A program made the translations under genes and the position numbers. This document shows positions 4,603 to 8,227 of a stretch of 8,227 nt of DNA, in pieces. The notes beneath the pieces are model-generated. The model worked only from the letters and a program-made list of their open reading frames with translations, did no database searches and was not told the DNA's origin. The stretch's first letter is position 1. Each line of letters starts with the position of its first letter. This DNA is from Ruminiclostridium sp. Lineage in GTDB: Bacteria > Bacillota_A > Clostridia > Oscillospirales > Oscillospiraceae. The stretch covers positions 1 through 8,227 of the forward strand of contig JAFXCU010000042.1 of the NCBI GenBank assembly GCA_017521345.1, in the 5' to 3' direction.

Positions 4603-4605
4603 AAT

Positions 4606-4995
4606 ATGGAACTGACTTTTGATCAGGTGGGCGAGCTGCTGGACGAGATGGCCGAGCAGTTTCCCCCGGTCTTTTTTGAAGAACTGAACGGCGGCATCCT
4701 CCTGGAAGAGGAAGCCAAGGAAGACCCCCTCTTTTCCCCCGGGGAGATGTATTTCATGGGGGAATACATCCAGGACGGGTATCTGGGCCGGTCCATCAAC
4801 CTCTATTATGGCTCCTTCCTGGCCTCCGCCCGAAACGAGGACTGGGACGAGGAGACCTGGAAGCAGGAACTCTACACCACCCTGGCCCACGAGCTGACCC
4901 ACCACATTGAGGGTCTGGCCAACGCCCACGGCCTGGACGACAAGGATGAGGAGGACCTCCTCCGCTATCTTCAGGAGTTTTACCCCCAGGAATGA
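4606..4995 (+). CDS. Small zinc metallopeptidase-like protein (zincin, HExxH)
   Basis: 129 residues, cytoplasmic (no signal peptide). The C-terminal third carries AHELTHHIEG (94-103) with the HExxH zinc motif at His95, Glu96 and His99. The upstream segments LNGGILLEEEA and YLGRSINLYYGSF fit the minimal zincins annotated 'metallopeptidase family protein' (PF06262-like). The third zinc ligand is not certain; Glu102, His108 and Asp111/112 are candidates. It is shorter than secreted proteases and lacks a prodomain, so a narrow intracellular role is more likely than general proteolysis. GAGAGG (4591-4596) lies 9 bases before the ATG, inside the end of the upstream gene. No clear hairpin terminator follows. 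Substrate unknown. Confidence 0.85.
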   Translation: MELTFDQVGELLDEMAEQFPPVFFEELNGGILLEEEAKEDPLFSPGEMYFMGEYIQDGYLGRSINLYYGSFLASARNEDWDEETWKQELYTTLAHELTHHIEGLANAHGLDDKDEEDLLRYLQEFYPQE

Positions 4996-5085
4996 CCTCT
5001 CTTCCCCTCAAAATACGCCACCATATCTTGTGGACGGCCCAAATTGGTTACAAATCGGTATCAAGATGTTGAAATTTTTTTACGA

Positions 5086-5141
5086 TTGACCACAAAATAT
5101 TCTCATTTGATATTGAAATTCTCCGCAATTTGTAGTAGTAT
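5086..5141 (+). promoter_or_regulatory. Two overlapping candidate promoters for sepF
   Basis: Candidate 1: TTGACC (5086-5091), 17 bases, GATATT (5109-5114). Candidate 2: TTGAAA (5113-5118), 17 bases, TAGTAT (5136-5141). Both are reasonable sigma-A matches in an A/T-rich tract unlike the surrounding genes. The leader that follows holds a small hairpin (GTCCG 5170-5174 / CGGAC 5181-5185 with a T6 loop). Confidence 0.55.
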
Positions 5142-5227
5142 GTAGAAAATGCTTAAATGTGCAAATCATGTCCGTTTTTTCGGACTTTGGGACAATATCG
5201 GGAGAAGCTTTGAGGAGGAATATGCCC

Positions 5228-5632
5228 ATGGGATTCTTAAGTGCACTGCGCCGTAAGCCGGCAGAAGAAGAGCTGTACGACGAGTACGAAGAGAGCTACG
5301 CATACGAAGAAGAAGAAAACTGGGAGAGCGCTGGTGCGCAGCCCATCCACAGCGTGGCTGATATGCGCGTGGTGGTGGTGGAACCCCAGGAGTATAAGGA
5401 CGCATCTAGAATCGCAGATCACCTGCGCGACATGAAGTTCGTGGTGGTGAACCTGGCCAAGACCGAGACCGAGATCGCTCGCCGTCTGCTGGACTTCATC
5501 TCCGGTGTCATCTTCTCTGAGGACGGCCACATCATGAAGGTGGCTACCAACGTCTATGTGGTGGCTCCCTACTTCGTGGATCTGAACGACCTGACCGGTT
5601 CCGGTGCTTCCGGCGATTATTTCTATTTCTAA
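5228..5632 (+). CDS. sepF: Cell division protein SepF
   Basis: 134-residue cytoplasmic FtsZ-associated division protein that bundles or curves FtsZ filaments and tethers them to the membrane. The N-terminal MGFLSALRRK looks like the amphipathic membrane-targeting helix. It is followed by an acidic, Tyr-rich linker (residues 13-33, 12 of 21 Asp/Glu) and the SepF core domain (about 45-122), recognisable from FVVVNLAKTETEIARRLLDF and SGVIFSEDGHIMKVATNVYVV. ATG 5228 is preferred: GAGGAGG (5212-5218) ends 9 bases before it. ATG 5222, in the same frame, is only 3 bases from the site. The frame is open further upstream without a ribosome site. The gene is monocistronic; the usual ylm/ftsZ neighbours are not in the window. 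Confidence 0.93.
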   Translation: MGFLSALRRKPAEEELYDEYEESYAYEEEENWESAGAQPIHSVADMRVVVVEPQEYKDASRIADHLRDMKFVVVNLAKTETEIARRLLDFISGVIFSEDGHIMKVATNVYVVAPYFVDLNDLTGSGASGDYFYF

Positions 5633-5644
5633 TTTCTCGCACAC

Positions 5645-5673
5645 AAAAACCGCTGCTTGCGCAGCGGTTTTTT
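5645..5673. terminator. Bidirectional terminator between sepF and the alcohol dehydrogenase gene
   Basis: 12-bp stem 5645-5656 / 5661-5672, loop TTGC. It has a G/C core CCGCTGC and A/T outer pairs that give a U-run on either strand (T 5668-5673 on plus, A 5645-5649 read on minus). It lies between two converging genes. Confidence 0.93.
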
Positions 5674-5678
5674 CTTGC

Positions 5679-6848
5679 TCAAAAGCTGTCTTTCAAAATT
5701 TGAAGGATCTCATTTCGGGTGAGGGTGTGATAGCCCCCCTGCTTACGAACACAGCTGGAGGCGATCTCACCCAGGAGGCTGTCATCGGGGATCCCCAGCT
5801 CCCGGAGGGTGGAACACATACCGCTGGCTTTGATATAATCGGCCAGGGCGTCGATCCCCGCCAGAGCCACCTCCTCGTCACTCTTCCCTGCCGGGTCCAC
5901 CCCCCACACGTTGACGGCGAACCGCTTGAACCGGGGGATGGCGTAAAGGTAAACCGTCCGGTAGTAAGCGGGAGAAATGGCCGCCAGACCCATACCGTGG
6001 GTAATGTTGTAGTAGGCAGCCAGCTGGTGCTGGATCTCATGGACCTCCCAGTCCTCGGTCTTGGAGGGGTTCAGCAGGCCGCTGAGGGCCAGAGAGGAGG
6101 CCCACATGAGGTTGCTGCGGGCGTTGTAGTCCTCCGAGTTTTCCAGAGCTGCAGCGGTGTTGCGGATGAGACTCTTCATCAAGGCCTCGGAAAAATCGTC
6201 GGAAATGTTGTCCGCATCGGTGGGACTGAAATAGGCCTCCATGATGTGGGAGAAGGTATCGAAGATACCGGACACCATATGGTACCGGGGTACGCTGTAG
6301 GTAAACTCCGGGTTCAGGATGGCAAAGTCCGGGAGAAAGGCGGACTCCGAACAGGAGGCCTTCACCTTGGTCTCCTCATGGGTGATGACGGCATCCCCGT
6401 CCAGCTCTGAGCCGGTACCTGCCATGGTGACAATGGCACCTACGGGCAGTGGCTGGGTCTCCGGGTCCTGCTTTTCCAGCCAGTACTTGGTCCAGAGGTC
6501 CCCCTCCTCCACGGCAAAGATGGAGACCGCCTTGGCACAGTCAATGACCGAGCCGCCCCCCACCGCCAGGATCAGGTCGGCGTTGGATGCCCGGGCCAAC
6601 CGGGCCCCCTCCAGGACTTTGGCATAGGTGGGGTTGGCCATGATGCCGGAAAACTCGGTGACAGACTTGCCGCAGGCCTTCAGGACTTCCATCACCTGGT
6701 CGTAAACCCCGTTGGCTTTGACGGAACCACCGCCGTAAGCCAGCAGAACGTTGGGGCCGTACTGGTCCAGCATCCCGGGCAGGTGCTCCATGACCGTCCG
6801 GCCGAAAAACACCTTTGTGGGGTTGTGATAGGCAAAATCCCGATCCAA
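5679..6848 (-). CDS. Iron-containing alcohol dehydrogenase (BDH/YqhD-like, group III)
   Basis: 389 residues, full length for the family; a cytoplasmic NAD(P)H-dependent aldehyde reductase or alcohol dehydrogenase. It has an N-terminal nucleotide-binding region with YGGGSVKANGVYDQV (38-52) and VGGGSVIDCAK (96-106), then the TMAGTGSE motif (141-148) and a C-terminal helical metal domain. Metal ligands by spacing: Asp197 and His201 in FDTFSH, His270 in EVHEIQH and His284 in ITHGMG, the same intervals as in E. coli YqhD and FucO. The order of motifs resembles clostridial butanol dehydrogenases; the true substrate cannot be told. The start is TTG (6848-6846), chosen because AGGAGGT ends 6 bases before it and no in-frame ATG lies nearby. 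It follows the Crp/Fnr gene by 16 bases on the same strand, so the two are probably co-transcribed. Confidence 0.94.
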   Translation of the reverse strand: MDRDFAYHNPTKVFFGRTVMEHLPGMLDQYGPNVLLAYGGGSVKANGVYDQVMEVLKACGKSVTEFSGIMANPTYAKVLEGARLARASNADLILAVGGGSVIDCAKAVSIFAVEEGDLWTKYWLEKQDPETQPLPVGAIVTMAGTGSELDGDAVITHEETKVKASCSESAFLPDFAILNPEFTYSVPRYHMVSGIFDTFSHIMEAYFSPTDADNISDDFSEALMKSLIRNTAAALENSEDYNARSNLMWASSLALSGLLNPSKTEDWEVHEIQHQLAAYYNITHGMGLAAISPAYYRTVYLYAIPRFKRFAVNVWGVDPAGKSDEEVALAGIDALADYIKASGMCSTLRELGIPDDSLLGEIASSCVRKQGGYHTLTRNEILQILKDSF

Positions 6849-6854
6849 AAGGGC

Positions 6855-6861
6855 ACCTCCT
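6855..6861 (-). promoter_or_regulatory. Ribosome binding site that fixes a TTG start
   Basis: Minus-strand AGGAGGT, ending 6 bases before the TTG at 6848-6846, in the 16-base gap after the regulator stop. The next in-frame ATG is at residue 20, inside the conserved N-terminal domain, so TTG is the likely initiation codon. Confidence 0.85.
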
Positions 6862-6864
6862 ATA

Positions 6865-7515
6865 TTAGAATGTTAAATCTTCCAGCGCATCTTGATCCAG
6901 AACGGTGACCGTACCGCGGCCCAGGGAGACGATCCCACGGTCGGCAAACTGCTTGAGCATCCGGGTGACCACCTCGCGGGAGGAACCGATGTGCCGGGCG
7001 ATCTGCTCGTGGGTGGCGGAATAGACCGGACCCTTCTGGTACTTGCCCTCGTCCCGAAGATAGCAGGCCAGACGTTTTTCCAGGCTGAAAAAGACGATGC
7101 GCTGGAGGGTATTCAAAGCCCCGGCATACTGGTTGGAGGCCTGCTGGTATACCAGCCGCTCCACGTCCTTGTTCTCCCGCATGAGCTGGGACAGGATGCC
7201 CGCAGGCAGAACGACCACCTCGGAGTTCACCTCGGCAATGATGTGGCTCTCAGTCTCCACCGCCTGGAAGACGCAGGAGGCGGACAGCACACAGGTCTGT
7301 CCCGCCTTGGCCCGGAGAATGGTGATCTCCCGGCCCTCCTCCGACAGGGCAAAGAAAGAGAGGCGACCCGTCCGCACGAAAATGATGCCCACGCAGGCAT
7401 CCCCGTGGCGGTGGACCATCTGCCCCTTCTTATAGCTGATCTGCTGGATGGAACGGTCCAGCAGGTCCCGCTGCTCTGGGGTCAAAAAGGAATAAAAAGG
7501 AATATCCCGGTTCAT
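6865..7515 (-). CDS. Crp/Fnr-family transcriptional regulator
   Basis: 216 residues: a cyclic-nucleotide-binding-like beta-barrel (about 8-110, with GRLSFFALSEEGREITI and the G-rich turn near 72), a long dimerisation helix (about 110-137), and a C-terminal winged helix (about 140-210). The helix-turn-helix runs from about 168 to 190; its recognition helix SSREVVTRML holds Arg180, Glu181 and Arg185, the R-E-x-x-x-R pattern with which E. coli CRP reads GTGA. It lacks the N-terminal Cys cluster of FNR, so an FNR-type 4Fe-4S centre is unlikely, but has Cys75 and Cys81 (C-x5-C) in the barrel. The phosphate-binding Arg-Ser/Thr pair of CRP is not evident, so cAMP is doubtful. ATG 7515 is preferred over ATG 7530 because GGGAGG (7528-7523) serves it; the first ATG overlaps that site and has none. 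It leads the dehydrogenase operon and diverges from dfx. Confidence 0.92.
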   Translation of the reverse strand: MNRDIPFYSFLTPEQRDLLDRSIQQISYKKGQMVHRHGDACVGIIFVRTGRLSFFALSEEGREITILRAKAGQTCVLSASCVFQAVETESHIIAEVNSEVVVLPAGILSQLMRENKDVERLVYQQASNQYAGALNTLQRIVFFSLEKRLACYLRDEGKYQKGPVYSATHEQIARHIGSSREVVTRMLKQFADRGIVSLGRGTVTVLDQDALEDLTF

Positions 7516-7556
7516 AACGGCGCCTCCCATAATATTTTTTAGAATTATTTTAGTTT

Positions 7557-7571
7557 CGTGACTAAATCACG
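7557..7571. promoter_or_regulatory. Palindromic operator upstream of dfx
   Basis: CGTGA-CTAAA-TCACG, a perfect dyad with 5-base arms and a 5-base spacer, centred on 7564. It lies 30 bases upstream of the first base of the predicted dfx -10. The half-site GTGA is the one expected for a Crp-like recognition helix, and the gene for such a protein starts 42 bases away. A near-identical dyad is found at 8154-8166. Which protein binds is inferred; a Fur/PerR-type factor is the alternative. Confidence 0.72.
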
Positions 7572-7581
7572 GAGGATAAGC

Positions 7582-7606
7582 ATACCAAGATGGTATTATC
7601 ATACCA
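7582..7606. repeat. Interleaved inverted repeats ATACCA / TGGTAT in the crp-dfx gap
   Basis: Three half-sites in a row: ATACCA (7582-7587), TGGTAT (7591-7596) and ATACCA (7601-7606). They form two perfect dyads sharing the middle arm (spacers 3 and 4). The second dyad contains an extended -10 on each strand: TGG-TATTAT on plus and TGG-TATGAT on minus. Confidence 0.65.
7591..7599 (+). promoter_or_regulatory. Predicted extended -10 promoter of dfx
   Basis: TGG-TATTAT: TGn followed by a -10 hexamer matching 5/6 (7594-7599). No acceptable -35 hexamer is found at 16-18 bases. The predicted start is near 7606, giving a leader of about 70 bases. The GTGA dyad would then sit at about -42, which fits activator-dependent transcription. 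Confidence 0.65.
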
Positions 7607-7675
7607 TAAAGAACGAGCAAGTGAAATATGCAAATGATAAAAACAGTACGGGAAAAACCGAAAGGAGAAAACATT

Positions 7676-8044
7676 ATGAAGTTCTATAAGTGCAGCCATT
7701 GCGGCAACATCATTGCTTACGTCGATGCTAAGGGTCCCAAGGTCATCTGCTGCGGCGAAGAGATGAACGAACTGGTCCCCAAGACCGCTGATTCCGCTGT
7801 CGAGAAGCACGTCCCCGTGGTCGAAGTGGAAGGCAACCTGGTGAAGGTCACCGTCGGTTCCACCCTGCACCCCATGGCAGAAGAGCACTTCATCCAGTGG
7901 ATCGCTCTGGAGACCGAGCAGGGCAACCAGCGCAAGACCCTGAAGCCCGGCCAGGAGCCCACCGTCACCTTCGCTCTGACCCCCGGCGACAAGGTTGTTG
8001 CTGCTTACGAGTACTGTAACCTGCACGGCCTGTGGAAGGCATAA
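7676..8044 (+). CDS. dfx: Desulfoferrodoxin (2Fe superoxide reductase)
   Basis: 122 residues, cytoplasmic; reduces superoxide to hydrogen peroxide without making oxygen, the usual anaerobe alternative to superoxide dismutase. The N-terminal desulforedoxin-like domain holds centre I with Cys6, Cys9, Cys25 and Cys26 (KCSHC ... ICCG). The C-terminal neelaredoxin-like domain holds the catalytic iron site: Glu43-Lys44-His45 (EKHVP), His65 and His71 (HPMAEEHFIQW), and Cys114 and His117 (YCNLHGLW). All ligands and the active-site Lys are present, so it should be a full 2Fe enzyme. ATG 7676 is taken for the AAAGGAG site (7661-7667) and because Met1 directly precedes the conserved KFYKC. The frame is open further upstream (an ATG at 7628), but without a ribosome site. 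Single gene with its own terminator; rubredoxin, the usual electron donor, is not in the window. Confidence 0.97.
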   Translation: MKFYKCSHCGNIIAYVDAKGPKVICCGEEMNELVPKTADSAVEKHVPVVEVEGNLVKVTVGSTLHPMAEEHFIQWIALETEQGNQRKTLKPGQEPTVTFALTPGDKVVAAYEYCNLHGLWKA

Positions 8045-8067
8045 TTACAATAACCCATAACCATTCC

Positions 8068-8097
8068 GTCCCGCACCGCAAGGTGCGGGACTTTTTT
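8068..8097 (+). terminator. Rho-independent terminator of dfx
   Basis: 10-bp G/C-rich stem 8068-8077 / 8082-8091 with a GCAA tetraloop (GNRA type), followed by T6 (8092-8097). Strong and typical, 23 bases after the stop. Confidence 0.95.
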
Positions 8098-8153
8098 ACC
8101 TGTTTGAGCAAGTCCACAGGCTCTAAAAAGATTTTCAAAAAGATAGAAATTCG

Positions 8154-8209
8154 GTGATAAAATCACAGTGAATGGGTATCCTACAATGGTATGATGTGAT
8201 CACAAAGAA
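8154..8209 (+). promoter_or_regulatory. Promoter and operator region of a gene beyond the window
   Basis: GTGAT-AAA-ATCAC dyad (8154-8166, centred on 8160), then the extended -10 TGG-TATGAT (8187-8195; hexamer 8190-8195, 5/6) exactly 30 bases after the dyad centre. A second possible -10, TACAAT (8182-8187), overlaps it. A 10-base perfect palindrome TGTGATCACA (8195-8204) lies on the predicted start. AAGAAGGAA (8205-8213) resembles a ribosome site, so a start codon just past 8227 is likely. The stretch aligns without gaps to the dfx promoter (38 of 56 identical). Confidence 0.65.
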
Positions 8210-8227
8210 GGAACACACAAACCTTAC

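Follow-up and report, generated by a model that had tools for sequence, protein, structure and literature searches.

At class II CRP-dependent promoters of Escherichia coli the activator site is centred at about -41.5, where it overlaps a poor -35 element, and in FNR the cysteines that ligate the cluster are N-terminal. The sensing of oxygen and disulfide stress in strict gut-type anaerobes is poorly mapped. Redox genes of Clostridia and other anaerobes come under the Crp/Fnr-family regulators HcpR and HcpR2, and in the available text of the source the HcpR motifs, GTAACnnnnGTTAC and TTGACnnnnGTCAA, are in the 6-bp register and serve hcp and frdX (PMC1274295). A second described protein is PgRsp of Porphyromonas gingivalis, a heme-binding member of the Crp/Fnr superfamily with a role in oxidative stress, which was modelled on 3DV8 and which its authors, in the available text, place nearest CooA/NnrR at about 20%; an operator of PgRsp was not found in that text (PMC6955866). 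The same text gives Eubacterium rectale as the source organism of 3dv8 (PMC6955866); in the open-access literature that we found, neither a function nor an operator was seen for the 3dv8 protein. In Clostridioides difficile, the available text of a further study reports induction of the trxA genes by 1% O2 (PMC10880999). Here we analyse a pair of similar promoters that lie next to a Crp/Fnr-type regulator gene.

Results

Two dyad-linked promoters in the window

The window, the whole stretch of 8,227 nucleotides analysed, carries the features collected in Table 1. The string GTGANNNNNTCAC occurs in it exactly twice, at the two dyads of Table 1, where 0.10 occurrences are expected; at least two were seen in 1 of 200 shuffles. 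The 6-bp form GTGA-N6-TCAC has zero occurrences within the window. A -10 hexamer with TGG in front of it lies 23 nt past each dyad, TATTAT at 7594-7599 (TGG 7591-7593) and TATGAT at 8190-8195 (TGG 8187-8189). Both hexamers start 30 bases past the dyad centre; with the first -10 base numbered -12, the dyad lies at -42. The initial annotation had described this equal offset and the shared TGG-TAT(T/G)AT, dyads that differ at 2 of 13 positions, and 38 ungapped identities in 56 between 7558-7613 and 8154-8209. The elements could be located as described, the dyad difference holds, and a recount again gave 38. Among ungapped 56-mer pairings of the two intergenic regions this one ranks first, and none of 2000 Markov-simulated pairs attained 38 identities, their maximum being 35. 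A further remark, that neither promoter has a decent -35, agrees with a consensus scan of 7450-8227, which gave no -35/-10 pair at either dyad-linked -10.

Table 1 Positions of the features discussed, in window coordinates
Feature	Position	Strand	Remarks
Operator dyad 1 (predicted)	7558..7570	none	GTGACTAAATCAC, form GTGAY-NNN-RTCAC; between the divergent regulator and dfx genes
Operator dyad 2 (predicted)	8154..8166	none	GTGATAAAATCAC; identical sequence in L001b, L003b and L003c
dfx extended -10, TGG TATTAT	7591..7599	+	23 nt from dyad; start predicted near 7606
Promoter 2 extended -10, TGG TATGAT	8187..8195	+	Start predicted near 8202
Crp/Fnr-type regulator gene	6865..7530	-	Pfam PF13545, PF00027, PF00325; proposed operator-binding protein
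dfx, desulfoferrodoxin / 2Fe superoxide reductase	7676..8044	+	122 aa; Pfam PF01880, PF06397
Terminator-like hairpin 3' of dfx	8068..8091	+	Within the duplicated unit; aligned region stops at 8097
Second dfx (predicted)	Start near 8271, beyond the window		Position extrapolated from L001

Two other inverted repeats lie at these promoters. TGGTATTATCATACCA (7591-7606) spans the -10 of promoter 1 and is partially retained in relatives, and TGTGATCACA (8195-8204) is a perfect palindrome that overlaps the end of the -10 of promoter 2 and is missing at the matching place in L001. As candidate second operators both were rejected, as they are not fully kept in relatives.

Dyad 1 could also be read in reverse, which would give autoregulation of the regulator gene, and TATTAT does lie 23 nt off on the minus strand (7534-7529). 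Against this reading, transcription starting 12 bases on would begin inside the ribosome-binding region ahead of the ATG at 7515, the position corresponding to the ATG at which the regulator homologues start, and L004, inspected by eye, is without a minus-strand -10 that matches it.

The promoters as copies of a tandem duplication

Aligned regulator homologues served to retrieve relatives. L001, the nearest of these, shares 91% identity with window 4605-8227 (the SepF cell-division gene, PF04472, lies at window 5228-5632). Tandem dfx copies were found by tblastn, two in L001 and three in L003, and window 7558-8097, from the dyad's first base to just beyond the terminator, gave a 79% alignment with the second L001 unit. 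The repeated unit consists of dyad, promoter, 5' leader, dfx, and terminator, and starts at the dyad's first base. In a tree of dfx, second and third copies cluster with support 92/94. Comparison thus shows the twin promoters to be the product of a tandem duplication beginning at the dyad, and being such copies the two window dyads are not independent. The initial annotation had denied that a simple duplication of the dfx upstream gave rise to the intergenic region. The comparison does not support this denial, as the repeat runs from the dyad's first base through the terminator. Since the window aligns over 7558-8097 with the second dyad-promoter-dfx-terminator unit of L001, the gene beyond the window is very probably a second dfx, encoding superoxide reductase. 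The window dfx itself scores 140 bits with NCBIfam TIGR00320, slightly under the cut-off of 146.9. One of the paired centre-I cysteines is lost in the second L001 copy and the third L003 copy (L001:6264-6626 and L003:2565-2930 (minus strand), CC to C and CC to CF), with the second-domain motifs kept, and the second L003 copy is intact; such extra copies may have changed from the 2Fe to the 1Fe type of superoxide reductase.

As the twin promoters are copies, their likeness might reflect recent copying and have no functional meaning. We find this hardly credible, because dyad, spacing, and -10 are retained at the single-copy dfx of L004-L009 though the letters between them diverge, and because the same dyad/-10 arrangement stands ahead of unrelated genes in other genomes. 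Each of L004-L009 has one dfx in the DNA compared, with no further dyad over the following 1.5 to 7.5 kb. One of these, L006, is the cultured Evtepia gabavorous, whose dfx has the same dyad. Over the nine relatives (L001-L009) the dyad precedes 12 of 12 dfx copies, so that conservation of the functional positions extends past the duplicated pair. The distance from dyad to -10 is 23 nt in ten of the 12 and 22 nt in one (L008); L007 offers either TAGTAT at 22 nt or TATCAT at 25 nt. TG stands ahead of the -10 in 11 of the 12, counting the TAGTAT of L007.

A cysteine-bearing regulator family

The regulator, whose gene went unmentioned in the initial annotation, falls within the Crp/Fnr superfamily, with PF00027, PF13545, and PF00325 above cut-off and with 3dv8 as the best PDB sequence match (profile E 3.1e-69), the three cysteines discussed below being visible in the alignment. 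It scores far under the cut-offs of the NCBIfam CRP equivalog NF008732 (42.4 bits versus 266) and of the NCBIfam FNR model (31.9 bits versus 228). Its only cysteines are at positions 46, 80, 86, and 156, so that there are none in the first 45 residues. R185 is invariant in the 126 distinct frames of the family, whereas E186 and each of the three cysteines Cys46, Cys80, and Cys86 are present in 125. Although 80 of these frames were found via a pattern containing Cys80 and Cys86, each of the three cysteines is present in 45 of the 46 frames found outside that pattern, and they recur in 27 of 27 and 16 of 16 frames of later sets. R185 and E186 match the CRP recognition pair. The available text of a published study correlates these two recognition positions with half-site bases G and A (PMC1274295).

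Co-occurrence of the predicted operator motif with the regulator

In a first scan of four relatives, the nearest relative was found to have five N5 sites, located at both dfx genes, at dyad 1 reversed, at a ferritin gene, and at a pyridine-nucleotide-disulfide oxidoreductase gene; the ferritin-gene site lacks the Y..R bases defined below. The genome scan that the initial annotation had suggested thus places matches, in relatives, before redox genes. The motif was refined to GTGAY-NNN-RTCAC, 22-23 nt ahead of TATNAT. The Y..R inner bases were picked after a scan of 40 relatives, some of which recur among the 197 same-order genomes examined below, and therefore the co-occurrence test is not fully blind.

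Across the 197 genomes, GTGA-N5-TCAC with TATNAT at 22-23 nt gave 83 matches in 53 genomes versus 4 in the reversed control, and the pattern with a 6-bp spacer gave 17 matches in 16 genomes versus 9 control matches. Genomes were called regulator-positive if the regulator model matched at E <=1e-20, which held for 73 of the 197, many of the 197 being drafts. The Y..R sites (51 of the 83) occur in 34 of the 73 regulator-positive but only 3 of the 124 regulator-negative genomes (Fisher 1.5e-14). In contrast, N5 sites that are not of the Y..R form (14/73 versus 15/124, p 0.21) and N6 sites (5/73 versus 11/124, p 0.79) show no such association; for all N5 sites the counts are 36/73 and 17/124. No site of the strict pattern was found in 39 of the 73 regulator-positive genomes. 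Of the three regulator-negative genomes with a Y..R site, G167 has it in front of PEP carboxykinase, apparently by chance.

The 51 sites give an order-wide consensus GTGAY-WWN-RTCAC-RGAA, with TATAAT 22 nt on in 43 and 23 nt on in 8. In our own reading, the G and A of RGAA would sit where the -35 sequence TTGACA has its G and A, at a 17-bp spacer. An extended TGn is present in just 13 of the 51, and the extended -10 is therefore a trait of the dfx branch rather than of the regulon. Taken over these genomes, comparison shows that the putative operator GTGAY-NNN-RTCAC is conserved at a fixed 22-23 nt before the -10 and tracks the regulator family.

Spacer preference at regulator loci

The association was also examined in 80 regulator loci (1.06 Mb) chosen by protein and not by operator pattern. 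These contain 63 N5 dyads versus 8.8 in shuffles, about a 7-fold excess. N6 and N3 dyads are enriched about 2-fold (19 versus 9.7 and 17 versus 8.4), and spacers 2, 4, and 7-11 are at or under chance. When a -10 was included in the pattern, N5 gave 33 matches versus 0.1 in shuffles and N6 gave 1. A class-wide search with a protein model later provided a separate set of 27 regulator loci. Eleven of them contain N5 dyads, 12 in all; N6 dyads number 2, and dyads with spacers 2-4 or 7-11 are absent. The loci of 16 lower-scoring relatives (L239-L254) have six N5 dyads in six loci, two N6, one N7, one N2, and five of the form GTGA-N11-TCAC, the last in five of the 16 loci.

For 136 oriented Y..R dyads from protein-found loci, the -10 lies at 22 nt in 37, at 23 nt in 13, and at 21 nt in 7, with scattered low counts at other distances, and for N6 dyads it lies at 22 nt in 2 of 44. 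The thioredoxin promoters of L023, L041, and L205 have a 6-bp spacer, so the spacing is not absolute. In all three, RGAA, a -10-like hexamer, and the half-site on the downstream side are retained, which suggests that the promoter-proximal half-site acts as the anchor. Among trxA promoters 34 of 69 have an exact N5 dyad, 3 an exact N6 dyad, 27 a dyad with one mismatch, and 5 none, but because these counts, like those of regulator-operator distance, mix operator-fetched with protein-found loci and include alternative starts, our case is not rested on them.

These counts bear on whether the dyads are classical sites for cAMP-CRP or for [4Fe-4S]-FNR. The GTGA/TCAC half-sites and the -41/-42 position would fit such sites, but most of the sites have a 5-bp spacer, the regulator has no cysteine before residue 46, and its scores with the NCBIfam CRP and FNR models are those given above; we consider this reading very improbable. 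The classical N6 site was rejected on the spacer counts in the window, the 197 genomes, and the 80 loci. Of the class II CRP/FNR architecture put forward in the initial annotation, the class II-like geometry thus finds support, whereas the attribution to classical CRP/FNR does not, given the 5-bp spacer and a regulator without the FNR-type N-terminal cysteines.

Another transcription factor might bind the dyads, the adjacent Crp/Fnr-type protein merely co-occurring with them. One genome can hold several Crp-family paralogues, with three matches in G001, and other factors could co-vary. However, the dyads are physically linked to the regulator family in loci found by protein as well as co-occurring with it between genomes, and R185/E186 are tied to the half-site G and A by the correlation in the available published text (PMC1274295), all of which makes a different factor quite improbable.

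Genes downstream of the sites

Sixty-eight Y..R sites have a downstream frame. The scan took in 67 of the encoded proteins, a single one being dropped for its masked residues; it covered neither 14 non-Y..R sites nor 3 sites without a frame. The 67 include 21 thioredoxins, 12 desulfoferrodoxins (these being the selected dfx loci), 7 rhodanese, 6 ferritin-like, and 6 Pyr_redox_2 proteins. Single scans gave an Fe/Mn superoxide dismutase, a rubrerythrin, a ferredoxin-thioredoxin reductase catalytic chain, disulfide oxidoreductases fused to rhodanese, TusA, and DsrE domains, and an ODP-type metallo-beta-lactamase fold protein, which we take to be a flavodiiron protein. The non-redox exceptions are PEP carboxykinase, two short-chain dehydrogenases (SDR; L103 and L170), and a repeat protein; the non-redox downstream genes include those of L163 and L178. 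Proteins of about 90 residues are encoded 3' of N5 sites in L104 (1576-1842) and L109 (1201-1473). The L104 protein matches NRDD (PF13597) at its C-terminal end only, and the L109 protein is similar by eye; they are possibly a glycyl-radical spare part, of a type that we would liken to YfiD.

Comparison thus shows that the predicted GTGAY-NNN-RTCAC sites mostly precede thiol-redox and oxygen-defence genes. The proposal that dfx and the off-window gene belong to one small regulon gains support, the matches in relatives preceding redox genes and the regulon appearing to be of a redox/oxygen type.

Discussion

We consider it likely that the window dyads are operators of the adjacent Crp/Fnr-type regulator, which would act by class II activation and sense stress through its cysteines. 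A regulator dimer would bind the dyad about 41-42 bp 5' of the start and, where the -35 is weak, activate RNA polymerase by class II contacts from about -41/-42. It may read oxygen, disulfide, or sulfane-sulfur stress via Cys46, Cys80, and Cys86. Activation would then raise superoxide reductase, made from two gene copies, together with ferritin and a disulfide oxidoreductase encoded at other genomic sites. Binding, the sign of control, and the signal are what we infer here from DNA and protein comparisons. The target set fits oxygen or thiol/sulfane-sulfur stress, for which the cysteines would be a natural sensor.

It is the geometry that suggests an activator and not a repressor: the dyads lie most often 22-23 nt ahead of the -10, which with a start position deduced from the -10 is a class II placement. 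Oxidant sensors often act by derepression. The dyad spans about -48 to -35 and so overlaps the -35 region, and a repressor bound there could be released under inducing conditions. The sharp dyad-to--10 distance, the weak or absent -35, and the class II position point to activation instead, and we regard repression as unlikely.

The axis of the odd-length dyad passes through a base pair, and should the regulator bind as we propose, a dimer geometry unlike that of CRP and FNR would be needed. The odd 5-bp spacer, which makes the operator 1 bp shorter than classical CRP/FNR sites, is the surprising part and bears on how rigid the geometry of Crp/Fnr dimers on DNA is, with the N5 and N6 thioredoxin promoters as natural variants. 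Several comparisons now connect the proposed operator with one regulator family and one group of target genes, and the dyad is probably the mark of a switch for oxygen or thiol stress that has not been described before. A wider proposal, which we advance tentatively and would on balance doubt a little, is that the three-cysteine family occurs class-wide and provides many anaerobic Clostridia with their chief switch for oxygen/thiol stress. Through the odd-length GTGAY-NNN-RTCAC it would jointly activate thioredoxin, ferritin, superoxide reductase, SOD, sulfur-transfer enzymes, and flavodiiron protein.

A search of the open-access literature, outside which most subscription papers lie, found neither this operator nor its regulon. 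What appears to be known is the type, a Crp/Fnr-type class II regulon, and what appears to be new is the unusual 5-bp operator and the uncharacterised cysteine-bearing family. Like class II CRP promoters, those described here have an activator site near -41.5 over a poor -35, but they have a 5-bp spacer where CRP has a 6-bp spacer and cAMP as its signal. As far as the available text of the HcpR and HcpR2 work goes, the systems are alike in placing redox genes of anaerobes under Crp/Fnr-family control. The HcpR motif is different, and the downstream genes tested included none that we could recognise as hcp or frdX; HcpR was rejected as the binding protein on motif and targets (trxA, dfx, and others). 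PgRsp, as its available description has it, shares with the window regulator the Crp/Fnr superfamily and the link to 3DV8, and differs from it in binding heme.
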